Assembly: GCA_013152275.1 (NCBI GenBank)
Contig: JAADGS010000070.1
Coordinates: 1 to 64,000, forward strand
Reading direction: 5' to 3'
Source: Actinomycetota bacterium
Lineage (GTDB): Bacteria; Actinomycetota; Acidimicrobiia; Spongiisociales; UBA4744
DNA: 64,000 nt
In this document: positions 2,138 through 19,514 of the stretch, one piece after another
Layout of the letters: each line of letters starts with the position of its first letter
How positions within the stretch are numbered: the first letter of the stretch is position 1
Position numbers and translations under genes: made by a program
Notes under the pieces: generated by a model
Database searches by the model: none
What the model saw: the letters and a program-made list of their open reading frames with translations, nothing else
What the model was told of the DNA's origin: nothing

Positions 2138-2866
2138 GTGGACACGAAGACCCTCTCACGCAGGCCGGCGCTGCCTATCCGGCCGTGGCGCAGGCATGTC
2201 ACCGGCGAGACGATTGCCACCGGTGCCGCCGGGGCGGTGTTGGGCGGCGCGACGCTGGCACCGATCGGCCTCGGTGTGCCGGGGGCGATCATCGGTGGCC
2301 TGAACGGCATGATCTCCGGGAAGCGCCGCATCTACGACTGGCATCGTCCGTCGGGATGGGCGGCGTTCGTCCTCGATTCGACGTGGGGCCTCATCGGCTC
2401 CGGCGCCGGCCTCGGGGTGCACGCGTTGCAGCAGCTCCGCCGGGACAGGGGCGGGTACCGGGCCGACCTCAGCGCCCGCAAGGGCCGTCATGTGTACGAG
2501 ACGGGGGTGACGATGCGCAAGGGGTTCACGATGGCCGCGGGCAACACGGTCACGAACCTCGGCAAGGGCCAGGCCCGGATAGACCTGCTGGAGCGCCACG
2601 AGATGCTGCACGTGTGGCAGTCCCGCCTGCTCGGTCCGCTGTTCCCTGCGATCTATGGACTCTGGATGATCGGTGGCGCCGCGGTGGGCACCGCCCTGGC
2701 ACTGGGGCGTGGAGAGGATCTGCGACGGACGGTCGACACGATCGCCTACTACGACAACCCGTTCGAGTACTGGGCGTACCGCCGCCAGGGCCTCTGGCCT
2801 CCACCAAACACGCACCCGCGGTACGTCTGGAGCGGTCGCAAACGTCCACCGGTGACGCCCGTCTAG
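2138..2866 (+). CDS. Gly-rich membrane-associated protein with an HExxH motif
   Basis: 242 residues from the GTG supported by the TACCCT box. Residues about 24-60 are a glycine-zipper-like hydrophobic stretch (many Gly/Ala, few charges). Residues 154-158 read HEMLH followed by VWQ, which fits the zinc HExxH motif of gluzincin-like proteases and looks like the HELxHVxQ of DUF4157-type proteins. A hydrophobic segment follows at about 168-190, and FEYWAY at 209-214 could supply a third ligand (Glu210). No signal peptide is evident. I do not recognise the family. Membrane-bound metalloprotease is an inference from the motif alone. The last 4 bases overlap the convergent sugar dehydrogenase gene. 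Confidence 0.65.
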   Translation: MDTKTLSRRPALPIRPWRRHVTGETIATGAAGAVLGGATLAPIGLGVPGAIIGGLNGMISGKRRIYDWHRPSGWAAFVLDSTWGLIGSGAGLGVHALQQLRRDRGGYRADLSARKGRHVYETGVTMRKGFTMAAGNTVTNLGKGQARIDLLERHEMLHVWQSRLLGPLFPAIYGLWMIGGAAVGTALALGRGEDLRRTVDTIAYYDNPFEYWAYRRQGLWPPPNTHPRYVWSGRKRPPVTPV

Positions 2867-4101
2867 CGCACCGGCACCATCCGGAAGATCGTTCCGTCGC
2901 GGGTCACGACGAGCAGTTCGCCGTCCCCGTCGAGGCCGAACGAAGTGACGTTCCCGATCGACTCGGCCCACTGCCGCTCGTCGGTCGCCACCCCGTCCTC
3001 GTACCGGAAGCTTCGGATCCACCCCGAGCAGTAATCCGAGTAGAAGTAGTCGCCGGCGAGTTCGGGGATCGCGATGCCCCGATACACATACCCGCCGGTG
3101 ATCGAACAGCCCTGCGAATGGTCGTACTGGAGCACCGGCAACGTCAGCCCTTCGGTATCACATCCCTTGGACGGCCTGTAACAGTGGTCCCCTTCGACGA
3201 CCGGCCATCCGTAGTTCAACCCGGCCGCGTTCGCCGGCGCCACATCGACCTCTTCGTACTTCTCCTGACCGACGTCGGCGATGTAGAGCAGCCCACCGTC
3301 GAACGAGAATCGCCACGGGTTCCGGAGCCCGTACGCCCACACCTCCGGCGCACCGCCACCGTGGACGAACGGGTTGTCGGGCGGGATGACGTAGCGGTCC
3401 TCAGGAGTCACGTCGAGCCGAAGCAGCGTCGCCAGCAGCGTGTCGGGGCGCTGGCCGTTGCCGAACTTGTCCCCCGCAGCTCCCCCATCGCCCAACCCCA
3501 CGTACAGGTATCCGTCCGGTCCGAAGGCCACCATGCCACCGTTGTGGTTCGACGCCGGCTGAGGGATCTCGAGCAGCACCGCCGCGGAAGCAGGATCGAG
3601 AACCTCTCCGGCGAGCCGATACGAGGCCACGACCGTCTTGCCGCCGGAACCGGTGTAGTCGACGAACACACGAGGATCGTCCGGGTAGTTCGGGTGGAAC
3701 GCCATGCCGAGCAGACCCCGCTCGTTGCCCTTCCGATCGACGACGTCCCGGATGTCCAGGAACAGGGTCTTCTCGTCACCGTCGAGCATCCAGACCCGAC
3801 CGGCCTGCTCGACGACGAACAAACGTGGATCTCCGGGAGACGCCGTGGCGAACAAGGGGTCGACCAGGCCCGTCGCGACGGCTTCGAAGCCGACTCCTTG
3901 GAGCGGTGGCAGAGTGGTGGTCGTCGTCGACGTCGGAGCGGTCGGGGTGGTCGTGATTGTCGTGGTCGTCGTCGAGACCGGGGAGGCCGTCGTCGTAGAT
4001 GCCGTCGTCGTCACGGTCTCGGGAACGGTTGTGGAAACCGGTTCCGAACCCGGAGAGCACGCGGCAACGAGCAGAAACCCGGCGATGACCACACGGCGCA
4101 T
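2863..4101 (-). CDS. secreted PQQ-dependent sugar dehydrogenase (GSDH family) lipoprotein
   Basis: 412 residues. A short signal peptide ends in the lipobox LVAAC (Cys15), so the protein should be anchored on the outer face of the membrane. A Thr/Pro-rich linker (about 22-66) holds the catalytic domain away from the membrane. Residues 70-412 are a six-bladed beta-propeller of the glucose/sorbosone dehydrogenase family: LFVVEQAGRVWML, GLLGMAFHPNY, SNHNGGMVAFGPDGYLY with the probable catalytic His186, VGLGDGG and WAYGLRNPWRFSFD are all present. Family members oxidise aldoses or similar sugars with PQQ; the actual substrate is unknown. The ATG has a TAGGGT -10 box 6 bases upstream and no ribosome site. 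The 3' end overlaps the convergent HExxH gene by 4 bases. Confidence 0.88.
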   Translation of the reverse strand: MRRVVIAGFLLVAACSPGSEPVSTTVPETVTTTASTTTASPVSTTTTTITTTPTAPTSTTTTTLPPLQGVGFEAVATGLVDPLFATASPGDPRLFVVEQAGRVWMLDGDEKTLFLDIRDVVDRKGNERGLLGMAFHPNYPDDPRVFVDYTGSGGKTVVASYRLAGEVLDPASAAVLLEIPQPASNHNGGMVAFGPDGYLYVGLGDGGAAGDKFGNGQRPDTLLATLLRLDVTPEDRYVIPPDNPFVHGGGAPEVWAYGLRNPWRFSFDGGLLYIADVGQEKYEEVDVAPANAAGLNYGWPVVEGDHCYRPSKGCDTEGLTLPVLQYDHSQGCSITGGYVYRGIAIPELAGDYFYSDYCSGWIRSFRYEDGVATDERQWAESIGNVTSFGLDGDGELLVVTRDGTIFRMVPVR

Positions 4102-4151: not shown

Positions 4152-5414
4152 ATGAAGTGGGACGACACCATCGACGGAAAGCACCTCCACCCCGAGAGCC
4201 TCATGATGAGCTACGGCTACAAGCCGGAGTGGTCCGAAGGCGCAATCAAGAGCCCGATCTTCCAGACCTCGACGTTCGCATTCGAGAGCGCGGAGGAGGG
4301 AAAGGCGTTCTTCGAAGTCGCCACCGGCAAGCGCCCGCCGGAGCCGGGAGAGAAAGTCGGGCTGATCTACAGCCGCCTCAACAATCCGGACCTGGAGATC
4401 GCGGAGGACCGGCTCTGCCTGTGGGACGGCAGCGAAGACGCACTCCTGTTCAAGAGCGGCATGGCGGCCATCGCCACCACGCTGTTCACCTACCTTCGTC
4501 CGGGAGATCTCATCCTGCACAGCGAACCGCTGTATGGCGGCACCGACCACCTCGTGAACAGCGTGCTCCCCGAGTTCGGCATCGGATCGATCGGATTCTT
4601 CCCCGACGAGACCCACGAGGAGATCCGGCGCCGGGTGACCGAGTCCGGGAACCGCCTCGGCATGATCTTCATCGAGACCCCGGCGAATCCGACGAACGCG
4701 CTCTTCGACATCCAGGAGTGCGCAACGGTCGCCAACGCAACATCGACACCGGAACGCCCCGTGCCCCTCGTCGTCGACAACACGTTCCTCGGTCCGCTGT
4801 TCCAAAGGCCGCTCGATCACGGTGCAGATCTGGTGATCTACAGTGCGACCAAGTACCTGGGTGGTCATAGCGATCTGATCGCGGGAGCCGTGCTCGGCTC
4901 GAAAGCCCTCATCGGCCCCGTCCGGGGGATGCGCACGTACCTGGGAACACATTCCGGACCATGGAACGGCTGGTTGCTCATGCGCAGCCTGGAGACACTG
5001 TCGCTGCGCATGCACAGGGAGGCCGACACGGCGCGTGAGGTTGCCGACTTCCTCCGCTCGCATCCGAAGGTGAACTACGTCAACTATCTCGGGTACCTGG
5101 AGCCCGGGGATCCCCAGCACGACATCTTCGTCAAACAGTGTCTGGGCGCCGGTGCGATGATCTCCTTCGAGGTACAGGGCGGCGAGCAGGGAGCGTTCCG
5201 GTTCCTGAACGCTCTCAAGCTGATCCACCTCGCGGTCAGTCTGGGCAGCAACGAATCACTGGCGGAACATCCGGGTGCGATGACGCATGCCGGCGTGCCG
5301 GACGTGGACAAGAAACGGTACGGAATCACCGATGGGCTGGTTCGCGTCTCGGTGGGAGTCGAGCATCCCGATGATCTGATCCTCGACCTGTCGCAGGCGC
5401 TCGACACCGTCTGA
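4152..5414 (+). CDS. Cys/Met metabolism PLP-dependent enzyme (cystathionine gamma-synthase/lyase family)
   Basis: 420 residues, fold-type I PLP enzyme of the trans-sulfuration family (PF01053). Visible marks are QTSTFAF near 38-44, YSRLNNPD (73-80), the FKSGMAAI phosphate-binding region (100-107), VVDNTF (207-212) and the PLP lysine Lys234 in SATKYLGGHSD. The C-terminal half carries SLGSNESLAEHPGAMTHAGV and RVSVGVEHPDDLI, typical of cystathionine gamma-synthase, gamma-lyase, methionine gamma-lyase and O-acetylhomoserine sulfhydrylase. These activities cannot be told apart here. A short insertion at about 57-70 precedes the YSR motif. The start has a good GAGAGGAG ribosome site about 8 bases upstream. 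No other sulfur gene is adjacent. Confidence 0.88.
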   Translation: MKWDDTIDGKHLHPESLMMSYGYKPEWSEGAIKSPIFQTSTFAFESAEEGKAFFEVATGKRPPEPGEKVGLIYSRLNNPDLEIAEDRLCLWDGSEDALLFKSGMAAIATTLFTYLRPGDLILHSEPLYGGTDHLVNSVLPEFGIGSIGFFPDETHEEIRRRVTESGNRLGMIFIETPANPTNALFDIQECATVANATSTPERPVPLVVDNTFLGPLFQRPLDHGADLVIYSATKYLGGHSDLIAGAVLGSKALIGPVRGMRTYLGTHSGPWNGWLLMRSLETLSLRMHREADTAREVADFLRSHPKVNYVNYLGYLEPGDPQHDIFVKQCLGAGAMISFEVQGGEQGAFRFLNALKLIHLAVSLGSNESLAEHPGAMTHAGVPDVDKKRYGITDGLVRVSVGVEHPDDLILDLSQALDTV

Positions 5415-5486
5415 CCCGACAGGGATGGTCGCCGCACGCGCACCCTCCTCACCGCTAGCCTGCCATTGCCGAGCACAGGAGAGGGA

Positions 5487-7664
5487 ATGGCAGCGTTGAC
5501 TCCCGCGTACGAAGGTCTCCCAGACAAGGAGTACCGGCGCAGGATCAGAGCCTGGACCCTCTACGACTGGGCAAACTCTGCGTTCGCCACGACGATTCTC
5601 GCCGCAGTGCTGCCCGCCTACTACAGCTCCGTCGCGGGAGCGACCCTCCCGAGCGCGGCAGTCGCCACCGCGTATTGGACGACGACCCTCAGCATCTCGC
5701 TGATCATCGTCGCCTTTCTGTCCCCCGTGCTCGGCACGATCGCCGATGTGATGCGGGGCAAGAAGAAGTTCCTTTCGATCTTCGTCGGCATGGGCGTCGT
5801 CGGCACGGGGCTTCTGGTCCTCGTCACCACCGGCGATTGGGTCCTCGCATCGGTGTTCTTCATCCTCGGACGGGTCGGATTCGCCGGCGCCAACGTCTTC
5901 TACGACGCCTTGCTGCCACATGTTGCCCGTCCCGAAGACCAGGACGTGGTCTCGACACGTGGCTATGCGATCGGCTACCTGGGAGGCGGACTGCTGCTCG
6001 CCGTGAACGTGGTCATGATCTTCGTGCTCGGCCCGGGAATCGGGGCCCGGCTTTCGTTCGTCTCCGTGGCGATCTGGTGGGCGATCTTCTCGATTCCGTT
6101 GTTCCGCCGCGTCCCCGAGCCGCCTGCGGCCTCTGCTCCGCACGAGCGGGGAACGAGCATCATCACGGCCAGCCTGAAACGCCTCGGTACGACATTCCAG
6201 CACCTTCGCAAGTACCGTCATCTCTTCCGATTCTTGATCGCGTTCCTCATCTACAACGACGGGATCGGAACGATCATCAGTGTCGCCGTGATCTACGGGA
6301 CCGAGCTGGGATTCAAAACCACCGAGTTGGTCCTCGCCATCCTGCTCGTGCAATTCGTGGGTATCCCCTTCAGTTTGATCTTCGGCCGGATCCCCGGCCG
6401 CAAGGATGCCAACCGGGCCATCTACCTGGCCTTCATCGTGTTCAACATCGTGGCCCTTCCGCTCGTCGGTGCCATCGGCGCAAGAGTTCTCCCCGCCGAC
6501 ACGACCGGAGCCCCTCCCGCCCCCTACGAGACCGTCGGTACTGCACTGGGAGAGGGAAGCTACGGGATCGATGCGATCACCTTCGACGGGAGCTGGACCG
6601 AGATACCCGTCGAGACGGTTGCGGATGCGACGCATGGACTCACCAGGGTCGCCGAGACTGCGGCACCGATCCTGCTGCTCATCGGCCTGATCGCTCTCGC
6701 CGCGGCATGGGTGCTGGGCATCAGACGACGAAGGAATCCGACCTCCAGCCTCTGGACCGTTCTCACTCCGTTGCTCACCGGGATCGCCGCGCTGCTCATC
6801 GCCGCCCTCGCCGAGCTTCTGATACTGACGGCCTCGAATCCGATCCCCTACTCGGCCGCCGCAGACTCCTCATCGACGGCAACGTTCACCTTCAACGGCC
6901 GGCGGGTCGAGATCATCCACAGCACAGGGCCCGATCTGGGAGTTTGGGTCGTGTCGATGGACGGGCGACCGCTCATCGAAGACGGTGAGCCGGTCACCAT
7001 CGACGCCACGACCCCCACGACGCGATACGGGGCGCAGGTGACCATCGACGCGGGCACTCCCGGGACGCACGAACTCACACTCCAAGCGTCCGGCGACGGG
7101 CGACTCGCCATCGGAGAGATCAAGGTCCTTGCCCCGCTGCGGACCAGCAACCTCGGCGTCATCCTCGGTCTGATCCTCGTGGTCGAGATCCTCGGTCTCG
7201 CCCTCTCTGCCCTATTCGGCAAGACCTTGTTCTCGAAGCTCGCAGATGCGATGACCACGAAGCGGGCGATCATCCTTGCGATCGGTGCATACGCGATCAT
7301 CGCCGTGTGGGGTTTCTTCCTCGACGCCATCTTCGAGTTCTGGTTCCTCGCATGGATGGTTGCAGTGGTACAGGGCGGAAGTCAGGCCCTCAGTCGAAGC
7401 ATGTACGCATCGATGTCACCCGCCTATGAGAGCGGCGAGTTCTTCGGGTTCTTCTCGGTCATGTCGAAGTTCTCTTCGATCCTCGGCCCGGTCATCTTCG
7501 CCGGTGCCGTCGCCCTCACCGGAAGCAGCCGACCCGCGGTCCTGAGCCTCGTGGTGTTCTTCATCGTCGGCATCGCAATCCTCAAAACCGTCGACGTCGA
7601 CGAAGGACACAGGATCGCCGTGGAGGCCGATGCCGCGATCGAGCGGGGCACGGCGGACGCCTGA
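5487..7664 (+). CDS. UMF1/Atg22-like MFS transporter with a large extracytoplasmic insertion
   Basis: 725 residues from an ATG with AGGAGAGGG just upstream. The N-terminal part is a normal UMF1 (Atg22-like) transporter: YDWANSAFATT (27-37), GTIADVMRGKKKF (83-95), ANVFYDALLPH (135-145), STRGYAIGYLGGG (156-168). The C-terminal part (about 577-725) completes it. Between them, residues about 300-577 hold extra material: a polar loop (333-392), two more membrane segments (393-413, 425-449), a soluble Thr/Gly-rich beta-type domain (460-552) and another membrane segment (556-577). The insertion is flanked by two similar blocks (FGRIPGRKDANRAIYLAF and FGKTLFSKLADAMTTKRAI), as if it arose with a local duplication. 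Normal relatives are about 430-480 residues. Members are thought to export amino acids or other small solutes; the substrate is unknown here. Confidence 0.85.
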   Translation: MAALTPAYEGLPDKEYRRRIRAWTLYDWANSAFATTILAAVLPAYYSSVAGATLPSAAVATAYWTTTLSISLIIVAFLSPVLGTIADVMRGKKKFLSIFVGMGVVGTGLLVLVTTGDWVLASVFFILGRVGFAGANVFYDALLPHVARPEDQDVVSTRGYAIGYLGGGLLLAVNVVMIFVLGPGIGARLSFVSVAIWWAIFSIPLFRRVPEPPAASAPHERGTSIITASLKRLGTTFQHLRKYRHLFRFLIAFLIYNDGIGTIISVAVIYGTELGFKTTELVLAILLVQFVGIPFSLIFGRIPGRKDANRAIYLAFIVFNIVALPLVGAIGARVLPADTTGAPPAPYETVGTALGEGSYGIDAITFDGSWTEIPVETVADATHGLTRVAETAAPILLLIGLIALAAAWVLGIRRRRNPTSSLWTVLTPLLTGIAALLIAALAELLILTASNPIPYSAAADSSSTATFTFNGRRVEIIHSTGPDLGVWVVSMDGRPLIEDGEPVTIDATTPTTRYGAQVTIDAGTPGTHELTLQASGDGRLAIGEIKVLAPLRTSNLGVILGLILVVEILGLALSALFGKTLFSKLADAMTTKRAIILAIGAYAIIAVWGFFLDAIFEFWFLAWMVAVVQGGSQALSRSMYASMSPAYESGEFFGFFSVMSKFSSILGPVIFAGAVALTGSSRPAVLSLVVFFIVGIAILKTVDVDEGHRIAVEADAAIERGTADA

Positions 7665-18258: not shown

Positions 18259-18291
18259 TCGTCAGGTCCCGGGTGACGGCACGCGTTGCGT

Positions 18292-18297
18292 TACAGT
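18292..18297 (+). promoter_or_regulatory. -10 element TACAGT of a leaderless promoter
   Basis: TACAGT ends 8 bases before the ATG at 18306. It supports that start over the in-frame GTG at 18273, which would lie upstream of the promoter. Confidence 0.5.
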
Positions 18298-18305
18298 CGC
18301 CACTC

Positions 18306-19514
18306 ATGGACACCTGGACACCGACACGCACCAGCACGATCTCATGGGTGCTGTATGACCTGGCCAACACGATCTTCGCGTTGGCCGTCGGAAGCCGTTA
18401 CTTCTCCGTCTGGGTCGTCGAAGACCAGGGAGCGACCGACGCCCACTTCGGGTATGCCACCGCCATCGCCATGGTGATCGTCATCATCCTCGCTCCATGG
18501 GTGGGAGCGCGCTCGGACCATGTGGGGAGGCGCAAACCCGCGTTGATCATTGCCACGATCGTCACGGTCGGAGCGACCGCGCTGCTGACGACCGTCGGCC
18601 TGTACCCCTCGCTGGCACTGTACATCGTCGGACAGATCGGCTTCACCCTTGGCAGTGTCGTGTATGACGCGATGCTTCCCGATGTCAGCACCGAGCAGAA
18701 CCGGGGCCGGATCTCCGGGCTCGGCGTCGGGGTGGGATACATCGGCTCGTTCATCGCCATCGGGACCGGTATGTTCATGCTCGACAGGTTCGGATACGGT
18801 CCACTGTTTCGGACTCTGGCGGCACTGTTCTTGCTCTTCGCGCTCCCCGCGTTCTTCCTCCTCAAGGAACGGCCCAGAGCGCATCAGGACACGAAGCCGC
18901 CTCGGTTCCTCGGCTCCCTCCAACACCTCCTCCACGCGTGGCAGCGCGCCCGCCAGTTCCCGGGAGTGACCCGATTCCTCGTCGGACGGTTCCTCTACGC
19001 AGACGCCGCCAACACCGCGTTTCTGTTCGTGTCGATCTTCGCCATCACCGAGATGGGGTTCTCCAATCGTCAGACCGACCTTCTCGCCCTGGCGGCCATC
19101 GTGTCGGCGGTGCTCGGCTCACTGGTCACAGGACGAGTCGTGGACGTGATCGGGCCGAGAAAGGTGCTCCACGGTGCAATCTACACATGGTGCGCGGCAG
19201 TCGCCGTTGCAGTGCTCGCAGCGCTGAGCGGTCACAGCTCCATCGGATGGCTCGTCGGTGTGCTCGGCGGTGCGGCCGCGGGGGCGACGTGGACATCCGA
19301 CCGTGTCTACATGCTGAGACTCTCCCCTCCGGAGCACTACGGGGAGTTCTACGGACTGTATGCCACGGTCGGCAGGTTCGCGACCTTACTCGGCCCCCTG
19401 GTATGGGCGTTCGTCACCGTCACGCTCGGGTTGGGCCGGATCGTTGCCATCGCCACCCTCCTCTTGTTCTTTGCCTCGTCGCGCTGGATCCTCGCCGGAG
19501 TGACCGATCACTAG
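18306..19514 (+). CDS. UMF1/Atg22-like MFS transporter
   Basis: 402 residues of normal family length with about 12 membrane segments. Landmarks: WVLYDLANTIFALAV near the N-terminus (the UMF1 'YDWANS' motif), GARSDHVGRRKPALI, GSVVYDAMLPDVS and RISGLGVGVGYIGSF in the N-terminal half, and SDRVYMLRLSPPEHYGEFYG in the C-terminal half. This set is shared with the oversized relative at 5487-7664, which has the same motifs but a ~280-residue insertion. The substrate is unknown; yeast Atg22 exports amino acids from the vacuole. The ATG at 18306 is chosen on the TACAGT spacing. It converges on the ADP-ribosylglycohydrolase-like gene, 23 bases away. Confidence 0.87.
   Translation: MDTWTPTRTSTISWVLYDLANTIFALAVGSRYFSVWVVEDQGATDAHFGYATAIAMVIVIILAPWVGARSDHVGRRKPALIIATIVTVGATALLTTVGLYPSLALYIVGQIGFTLGSVVYDAMLPDVSTEQNRGRISGLGVGVGYIGSFIAIGTGMFMLDRFGYGPLFRTLAALFLLFALPAFFLLKERPRAHQDTKPPRFLGSLQHLLHAWQRARQFPGVTRFLVGRFLYADAANTAFLFVSIFAITEMGFSNRQTDLLALAAIVSAVLGSLVTGRVVDVIGPRKVLHGAIYTWCAAVAVAVLAALSGHSSIGWLVGVLGGAAAGATWTSDRVYMLRLSPPEHYGEFYGLYATVGRFATLLGPLVWAFVTVTLGLGRIVAIATLLLFFASSRWILAGVTDH

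Follow-up and report, generated by a model that had tools for sequence, protein, structure and literature searches.

The window, i.e., the whole stretch of 64,000 nucleotides analysed here, contains a gene for a membrane transporter whose chain is interrupted by a long insert. This locus raises the questions of what the insert is composed of, how a transporter may have come to carry it and what role it may play. The reading that we prefer, to which we assign a probability of about 50%, is that the protein is a secondary transporter of the UMF1 type that carries an extracytoplasmic accessory domain of its own. The relevant features are as follows (AF2, AlphaFold2).

4152..5414, + strand: Cys/Met metabolism PLP enzyme (NF005455, cystathionine gamma-synthase family); 72 bp separate it from the transporter downstream
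5487..7664, + strand: UMF1/Atg22-type MFS transporter with a nested insert, 725 aa (ORF, Pfam, AF2 model)
5523..6389, + strand: core helices TM1–TM8, residues 13–301 (AF2 model; MFS fold)
6318..6488, + strand: copy 1 of an apparently duplicated unit, TM8 (278–301), loop and TMa (310–334) (model, HMM-HMM, window scan)
6393..7250, + strand: whole insert in loop 8–9, residues 303–588 (alignment with insert-free UMF1)
6513..6626, + strand: beta domain, part one, residues 343–380 (profile match, AF2 model)
6636..6827, + strand: two-helix hairpin (384–416, 423–447) with an Arg-rich turn, inside the beta domain (AF2 model)
6834..7142, + strand: beta domain, part two, residues 450–552 (profile match, AF2 model)
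7152..7319, + strand: copy 2 of the apparently duplicated unit, TMd (556–588), loop and TM9 (591–611) (model, HMM-HMM, window scan)
7251..7586, + strand: core helices TM9–TM12, residues 589–700 (AF2 model)
18273..19514, + strand: insert-free UMF1 paralogue, 413 aa (ATG22, E 1.9e-30)

The reading frame 5466–7664 is open and unbroken, and from the ATG at 5487 it encodes 725 residues. With 230.4 bits (E 5.2e-68), the protein passed the gathering cut-off (24.1) of Pfam ATG22 (PF11700), MFS_1 being a further Pfam assignment; this confirms the UMF1/Atg22 transporter that an earlier note on this DNA had read at 5487–7664. The same note had mentioned a paralogue without the insert at 18306, and the insert is indeed absent from the 413-residue protein listed above. 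The whole-protein AF2 model, which was built on 81 sequences, has a mean pLDDT of 92.5 and a pTM of 0.89. It contains 16 long helices, and all 12 core MFS helices are found among them: TM1–TM4 (13–50, 57–89, 92–112, 118–141), TM5–TM8 (149–181, 183–208, 244–273, 278–301) and TM9–TM12 (591–611, 615–643, 646–678, 681–700). When the model was compared with MFS structures (VIA), the Z values were 28.6–32.5 over the best 50 rows shown. SV2A (9pc9) was in the top row (Z 32.5, 393 residues, rmsd 3.2), rows within 1 of it being regarded as tied, and MelB (7l16) gave Z 30.9 over 407 residues with an rmsd of 3.0.

The insert (about 286 residues, approximately 303–588) sits in the loop that joins core TM8 to TM9. 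In four insert-free UMF1 rows, the FGR/FGH of TM8 is continuous with the RxGxK part of the loop before TM9; relative to these rows, the insert begins after the FGR/FGH ending TM8 and ends before the RxGxK of the same loop. The previously given span of about 300–577 is correct in location to within about ten residues, and its limits are corrected here. Four long helices, rather than the three extra hydrophobic segments claimed before, are present in the modelled insert, namely 310–334 (TMa), 384–416 and 423–447 (the hairpin) and 556–588 (TMd), while beta strands occur at 357–373 and 455–547. The soluble domain that had been delimited as 460–552 is of the beta type as described, but it comprises residues 343–380 plus 450–552 and is split by the hairpin: the profile of the domain gave a single end-to-end match over 343–552, in which the hairpin is one insertion of about 67 residues. 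With its 16 helices and the beta domain, the chain differs from the uninterrupted 12-helix chain of the insert-free paralogue and relatives. The structure prediction that the earlier note had proposed as a check yielded an ordered insert, whose block-mean pLDDT values in the whole-protein model (84–98) rule out disorder. An assembly error is likewise ruled out by the recurrence of the insert in many genomes, including a genome of the same genus that carries an insert protein at 93% identity.

A clue to the origin of the extra helices is provided by two similar blocks at the ends of the insert, in which an internal duplication had already been suspected. These blocks were found to be the loop parts of TM8-loop-TMa and TMd-loop-TM9. 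In an HMM-HMM comparison, the two helix-loop-helix units matched with a probability of 93% (E 3.6e-7, 33% identity over 43 columns), and when 11 segments of the protein were paired, no other non-overlapping pair scored as high, the runner-up reaching 59%. In the window scan, TM8 (282–301) scored 16.9 against residues 560–579, all the others of the 691 windows giving 1.2 or less, and one positive register was found between TM8 and TMd among the twenty printed. Both results support the suspected duplication: the TM8-loop-TM9 unit appears to have been duplicated in tandem and in register, yielding two extra helices. Since TM8 and TM9 resemble those of the insert-free UMF1 rows, TMa and TMd would be the diverged copies.

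The likeness between TMa and TM9 is weaker, with +1.8 in one of the 18 registers printed and −18 or lower in the rest. A different origin, in which an unrelated membrane protein donated the TMa-beta-TMd block as a whole and the likeness of this block to TM8/TM9 is convergent, would be in accord with the divergence of TMa and TMd, with the absence of TM9 from the five best windows of TMa in the scan, and with the slightly higher scores of TMd and TM9 for hairpin windows than for their supposed partners (TMd, 11.7 with window 393 and 10.2 with TM8; TM9, 3.1 with window 392 and 1.1 with TMa). We nevertheless consider this origin improbable, since the combined helix-loop-helix matches in register at the above E value and exceeds all the other non-overlapping pairs, the TM8/TMd match is unique in both score and register, and TMa/TM9 is positive in its one register. 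The hairpin itself was also considered as a further copy of TM8-TM9 and was rejected: it matched copy 2 with a probability of 28%, and although some of its window scores equal those of the true partners, the likeness is tentatively judged to be compositional, the hairpin columns of the scan comprising five sequences.

The fold of the beta domain was examined using the isolated domain of a relative, L057 (AF2 pLDDT 97.6), the window's own domain having been modelled within the whole protein. The L057 domain has a CE2_N/CBM-like beta-sandwich fold. Its best match in the rescored Foldseek list was 3nqh (Z 15.2, 116 residues, rmsd 2.0); the CE2 esterase 2waa (Z 13.0), the mannan esterase 6hfz (Z 12.7), MiXBM 7ehg (Z 12.3), CBM35 and CBM6 modules (Z about 10–11) and the C-terminal domain of DipZ (Z 10.5) were also matched. 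For the sequence comparison, the beta domains were collected in the alignment A3, which contains 66 of the 74 domains passing a length filter, eight having been left out by hand; the rows dropped by the filter were the five with the hairpin and the two lacking the beta domain. Weak Pfam matches to CE2_N (PF17996) were obtained for 33 of these 66 domains (best E 1.4e-4), the best of the 66 scoring 22.3 bits against a gathering score of 27.9. Thioredoxin_10 was weakly matched by 13 of the 66 and PCC_BT by 14, the latter being an unrelated-looking family that was counted against the reading as an accessory binding domain. Against solved proteins, the sequence profile of the beta domain gave only chance-level hits (E 0.31 and 0.78), so that the relation to these proteins comes from the fold comparison and from related modules and not from the direct profile.

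Such modules were found in other proteins. In the phylum, the beta-domain profile matched at least 46 of 396 genomes at E 1e-6, and among ten matching stretches that were fetched, two encoded further UMF1 transporters with the domain (L127 and L128) and eight encoded other proteins. The carriers include a GH35 beta-galactosidase (L119), an RHS protein (L121), an Ig-domain protein (L122) and an M28 peptidase (L123); according to their annotation, proteins of the L119–L123 type would act outside the cell. Three of the module proteins (L121, L124 and L126) pass the CE2_N cut-off, which ties the beta domain of the transporters to the CE2_N family through intermediates. The beta domain is related by descent to a module of enzymes and surface proteins. 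Its conserved columns, a GPxxGxxxVxxDG stretch and a GxH turn, are mostly common to the other modules; they are therefore likely to be structural and do not allow a binding site to be named. In the window's genome, no second copy of the domain was found besides this gene at E values up to 1, all 16 candidates having been scored, and none of the 98 pattern-matching stretches in viral contigs encoded a relative. A further carrier, from a different genome of the phylum, is a FliD flagellar cap protein (L120:814–3144), in which a module of the same type lies close to the C-terminal end.

The sidedness of the domain was read from the charges and the helix count. Basic motifs occur in loops after TM2 (MRGKKK), before TM7 (RKYRH), after TM8 (GRKDANR), in the hairpin turn (RRRRNP) and before TM9 (TTKR). 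With the basic loops placed inside, the TM8–TM9 loop would be cytoplasmic, TMa would lead out, the beta domain would lie outside and TMd would lead back in. The beta domain is probably located outside the cell on this basis; such a location, which the earlier note had raised as a possibility, is the best account and fits both the CBM-like fold and the flanking loops read as cytoplasmic.

We then consider how widely the insert is distributed. The 80 best of 280 relatives were kept, and four of the 80 loci gave two proteins each. The alignment A1, consisting of 80 rows and the window, left out L025 and L079 (contig ends), L036 (in-frame stop) and L063 (start motif not found). In this set, in which insert-bearing proteins are over-represented because the search patterns included insert peptides and the best 80 of 280 were kept, the beta domain was found in 78 of the 80 rows besides the window, most of them titled Chloroflexota or Acidimicrobiia, and the recurrence in related genomes that the earlier note had suggested looking for was found in these 78. 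In L044 and L055, which come from two genomes in both of which the short form was found again, both extra helices are kept and the beta domain is absent. The hairpin was seen only in the window and L001–L004 among the 81 aligned proteins, and the hairpin loop varies in length in other rows too (e.g., L021, L022, L026 and L056). Of 59 genomes, the window's own and those of 58 relatives up to the order level, 57 gave a UMF1 match, and in eight the hairpin form was found as one unbroken full-length match.

More broadly, the domain profile matched at least 22 of 296 genomes in the class, 21 of them belonging to the window's order. In the class of L033's genome (titled Chloroflexota), at least 20 of 199 genomes matched at E 1e-15, some of which may represent other proteins; eleven of these 20 reached 4.4e-32 or better with open frames of 435–719 aa, and the other nine were weaker. 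In the phylum of L033's genome, 4 of 301 genomes matched at the E 1e-15 level. The counts of 22 of 296, 46 of 396 and 20 of 199 are lower bounds because the first candidates per genome (up to 12, 9 and 19, respectively) were scored. The transporter is a variant of the known UMF1 family with a nested insert, widespread enough to be real.

A tree of 94 rows was made from the core only, the insert columns being removed, by a quick search without bootstraps; long branches meet in it, and the positions of L127, L128, L026, L028 and L098 are unsure. The 85 insert-type rows fall on one side of a branch with an SH-aLRT of 100. The insert-free UMF1 rows are just nine, all from the window's order; for this reason, a single gain of the insert is likely but not proven. 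L044 and L055 lie deep within the insert-type side, adjoining L046 (83), and this nesting suggests that they probably lost the beta domain. The five hairpin rows can be accounted for by one change, but on a branch without support. Two metagenome-derived contigs bear the titles of other phyla, L066 (titled Pleurocapsa minor) and L026 (titled Verrucomicrobia; its place is unsure, on a long branch), but their insert-type genes group with Chloroflexota-titled ones, for which either mis-binning or gene transfer may account. In L036:3600–4817, an in-frame stop is located within the beta domain, behind which the same frame stays open for the remainder of the gene; this may reflect either a sequencing error or a broken gene.

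The insert is under purifying selection. Between the window and L082 (same genus), dN/dS was 0.12 for the core and 0.19 for the whole insert, with 0.07 for TMa, 0.09 for TMd, 0.18 for the hairpin, and 0.25 and 0.27 for the two beta parts. Between the window and L083 (another genus), where dS rises to 1.6, the corresponding values were 0.11 for the core, 0.24 for the whole insert, 0.13 for TMa, 0.08 for TMd, 0.43 for the hairpin, and 0.12 and 0.31 for the beta parts. These values indicate that the extra helices are constrained about as strongly as the core, while the outer domain changes faster but is also constrained.

The preferred reading can be expressed as a sequence of steps. The TM8-loop-TM9 unit of an intact 12-helix MFS core would have been duplicated in tandem, adding two helices to it; between these new helices, a CBM-like beta-sandwich module would have been placed; and in the window's lineage a further two-helix hairpin would have interrupted the sandwich, which brings the number of long helices to 16. 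The beta domain would face outward and may dock on a partner, on a glycan of the envelope or on a substrate linked to a glycan; this docking could position or gate the transporter, movements being passed through TMa/TMd beside TM8/TM9. Since the carrier helices stand beside the TM8–TM9 loop, the position or occupancy of the domain could be coupled to the transport cycle. Yeast Atg22 functions in amino-acid efflux; by analogy, the core probably carries a small amino-acid-like solute, and the Cys/Met enzyme encoded next door weakly suggests the same. A more specific form, a single-chain "transporter plus receptor" with a capture domain gained via the TM8–TM9 duplication and with transport controlled by the binding of an external glycan or substrate, is in our view doubtful. 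If true, it would be the secondary-transporter counterpart of binding-protein-dependent uptake, with the capture domain hard-wired to the helices beside the gating loop.

The absence of the beta domain from L044 and L055 and the structural appearance of its conserved columns were counted against the accessory-domain reading, and two other roles of the insert have to be weighed. The beta domain may serve as a protein-protein contact, for dimerisation or for the docking of a partner, and not as a binder of sugars or solutes. The Foldseek list also includes beta-sandwiches that make protein contacts (MAM and Eph ligand-binding domains), and in L027, L030, L035 and L039 two different insert-type genes lie side by side, a tandem arrangement that would suit a heterodimer; the closest folds, however, are those of carbohydrate-active proteins, and across the clades no partner gene is conserved beside the transporter. 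We regard a contact function as possible, though clearly less probable than the preferred reading. It is very unlikely that the insert has little function and is simply tolerated as a decoration. Its occurrence is patchy (at least 22 of the 296 genomes in the class and at least 20 of the 199 in that of L033, some of the latter perhaps being other proteins), it changes faster than the core, and the beta domain is lost in L044 and L055; against this stand purifying selection (dN/dS 0.19–0.24), the presence of the insert in two phyla as titled, and the retention of both extra helices where the beta domain is gone.

From the reading as a UMF1 transporter with an accessory domain, a traceable route suggests itself for how MFS transporters may acquire an extracytoplasmic domain: a helix hairpin is duplicated, a module of surface proteins comes to lie between the copies, and the module is then itself interrupted by a hairpin. 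Proteins that have an unsplit beta domain, a split one or just the extra helices occur naturally, and this series is a ready test set for the role of the domain in transport. The function of the UMF1 family (TC 2.A.1.24) is given as unknown in the available part of a survey (PMC3924187), and an attached binding domain could offer a way into the function of its bacterial members.

Compared with known systems, the window protein is like the UMF1/Atg22 family in the core sequence, the TM1 motif YDWANSA(F/Y) and the 12-helix MFS core, and differs in the added insert of about 286 residues in loop 8–9 with four helices and a beta domain. SV2A is alike as an MFS protein with a beta domain inserted in its C-terminal half on the non-cytoplasmic side. 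In the available text of PMC11026379, LD4 of SV2A is a beta-helix inserted directly between TM7 and TM8; it is a precedent for an MFS protein that carries a large beta domain as an insert, whereas the window protein has no beta-helix there but a beta-sandwich that is borne by an extra helix pair and lies between TM8 and TM9. The 14-helix DHA2 transporters (MHAS2168/Rv1410 and QacA) also have two extra MFS helices. As far as the available portions describe them, the linker helices of MHAS2168 lie between TM6 and TM7 (PMC10576003), whereas the extra helices of the window protein enclose a beta domain and are located between TM8 and TM9; the extracellular EL7 hairpin of QacA is needed for efflux (PMC10425836) and provides a precedent for an extracellular element needed for transport away from the vestibule. 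The N-domain of CE2 esterases, CBM35, CBM6 and the C-terminal domain of DipZ share the beta-sandwich (Z about 10–15), with a direct sequence similarity that is weak and becomes clearer via related modules; in contrast to these modules, the transporter domains score below the Pfam gathering score and are embedded in a transporter, and that of the window is split by a hairpin. The carbohydrate-binding module of EmbC is likewise a domain of the sugar-binding type on a membrane-embedded envelope protein, but in the available part of PMC3044687 it is C-terminal on an arabinosyltransferase, while that of the window is inserted in a transporter. No prior description of such an MFS insert was found among the matches listed, in titles and abstract openings within open-licence PubMed Central.

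Finally, the neighbouring genes were examined. The PLP enzyme upstream of the transporter scored 566 bits versus 504 for NF005455. Relatives of this Cys/Met enzyme, of a LapA-domain gene and of a CoA-disulfide-reductase-like gene of the window were found in four of the 80 loci (L001–L004). Across the 80 loci, the neighbours point to no common pathway and differ between clades, and because the sequence of many loci stops no more than a few kb from the gene, absences of neighbours mean little. Two groups of ORFs mark the Chloroflexota-type loci. One is an upstream group on the opposite strand (18 of 67), taken as PIN-domain proteins, PIN matches being obtained for 16 of the 133 neighbours scanned. 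The other is a downstream group of the UbiE/MenG type (13 of 71; L012, L014, L016, L019, L031, L037, L038, L040, L042, L047, L049, L058 and L062): PF01209 was matched by 13 of the 133 scanned neighbours, and the three ORFs tested were all above the TIGR01934 cut-off. In L019, L038 and L047, this methyltransferase ORF overlaps the transporter by four bases, which suggests an operon. In five Anaerolineae loci, the upstream genes are mutually related, and that of L007, the one tested, is an LCP glycopolymer transferase, which was counted in favour of the preferred reading. A gene of the glucose/sorbosone dehydrogenase type occurs near the transporter in the window (2863–4101, − strand), and similar genes were seen in eight of the 80 loci (L001–L004, L027, L045, L078 and L080). 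The two adjacent insert-type genes in each of L027, L030, L035 and L039 are diverged from each other, and the second copy in L035 ends in a charged tail of roughly 45 residues.
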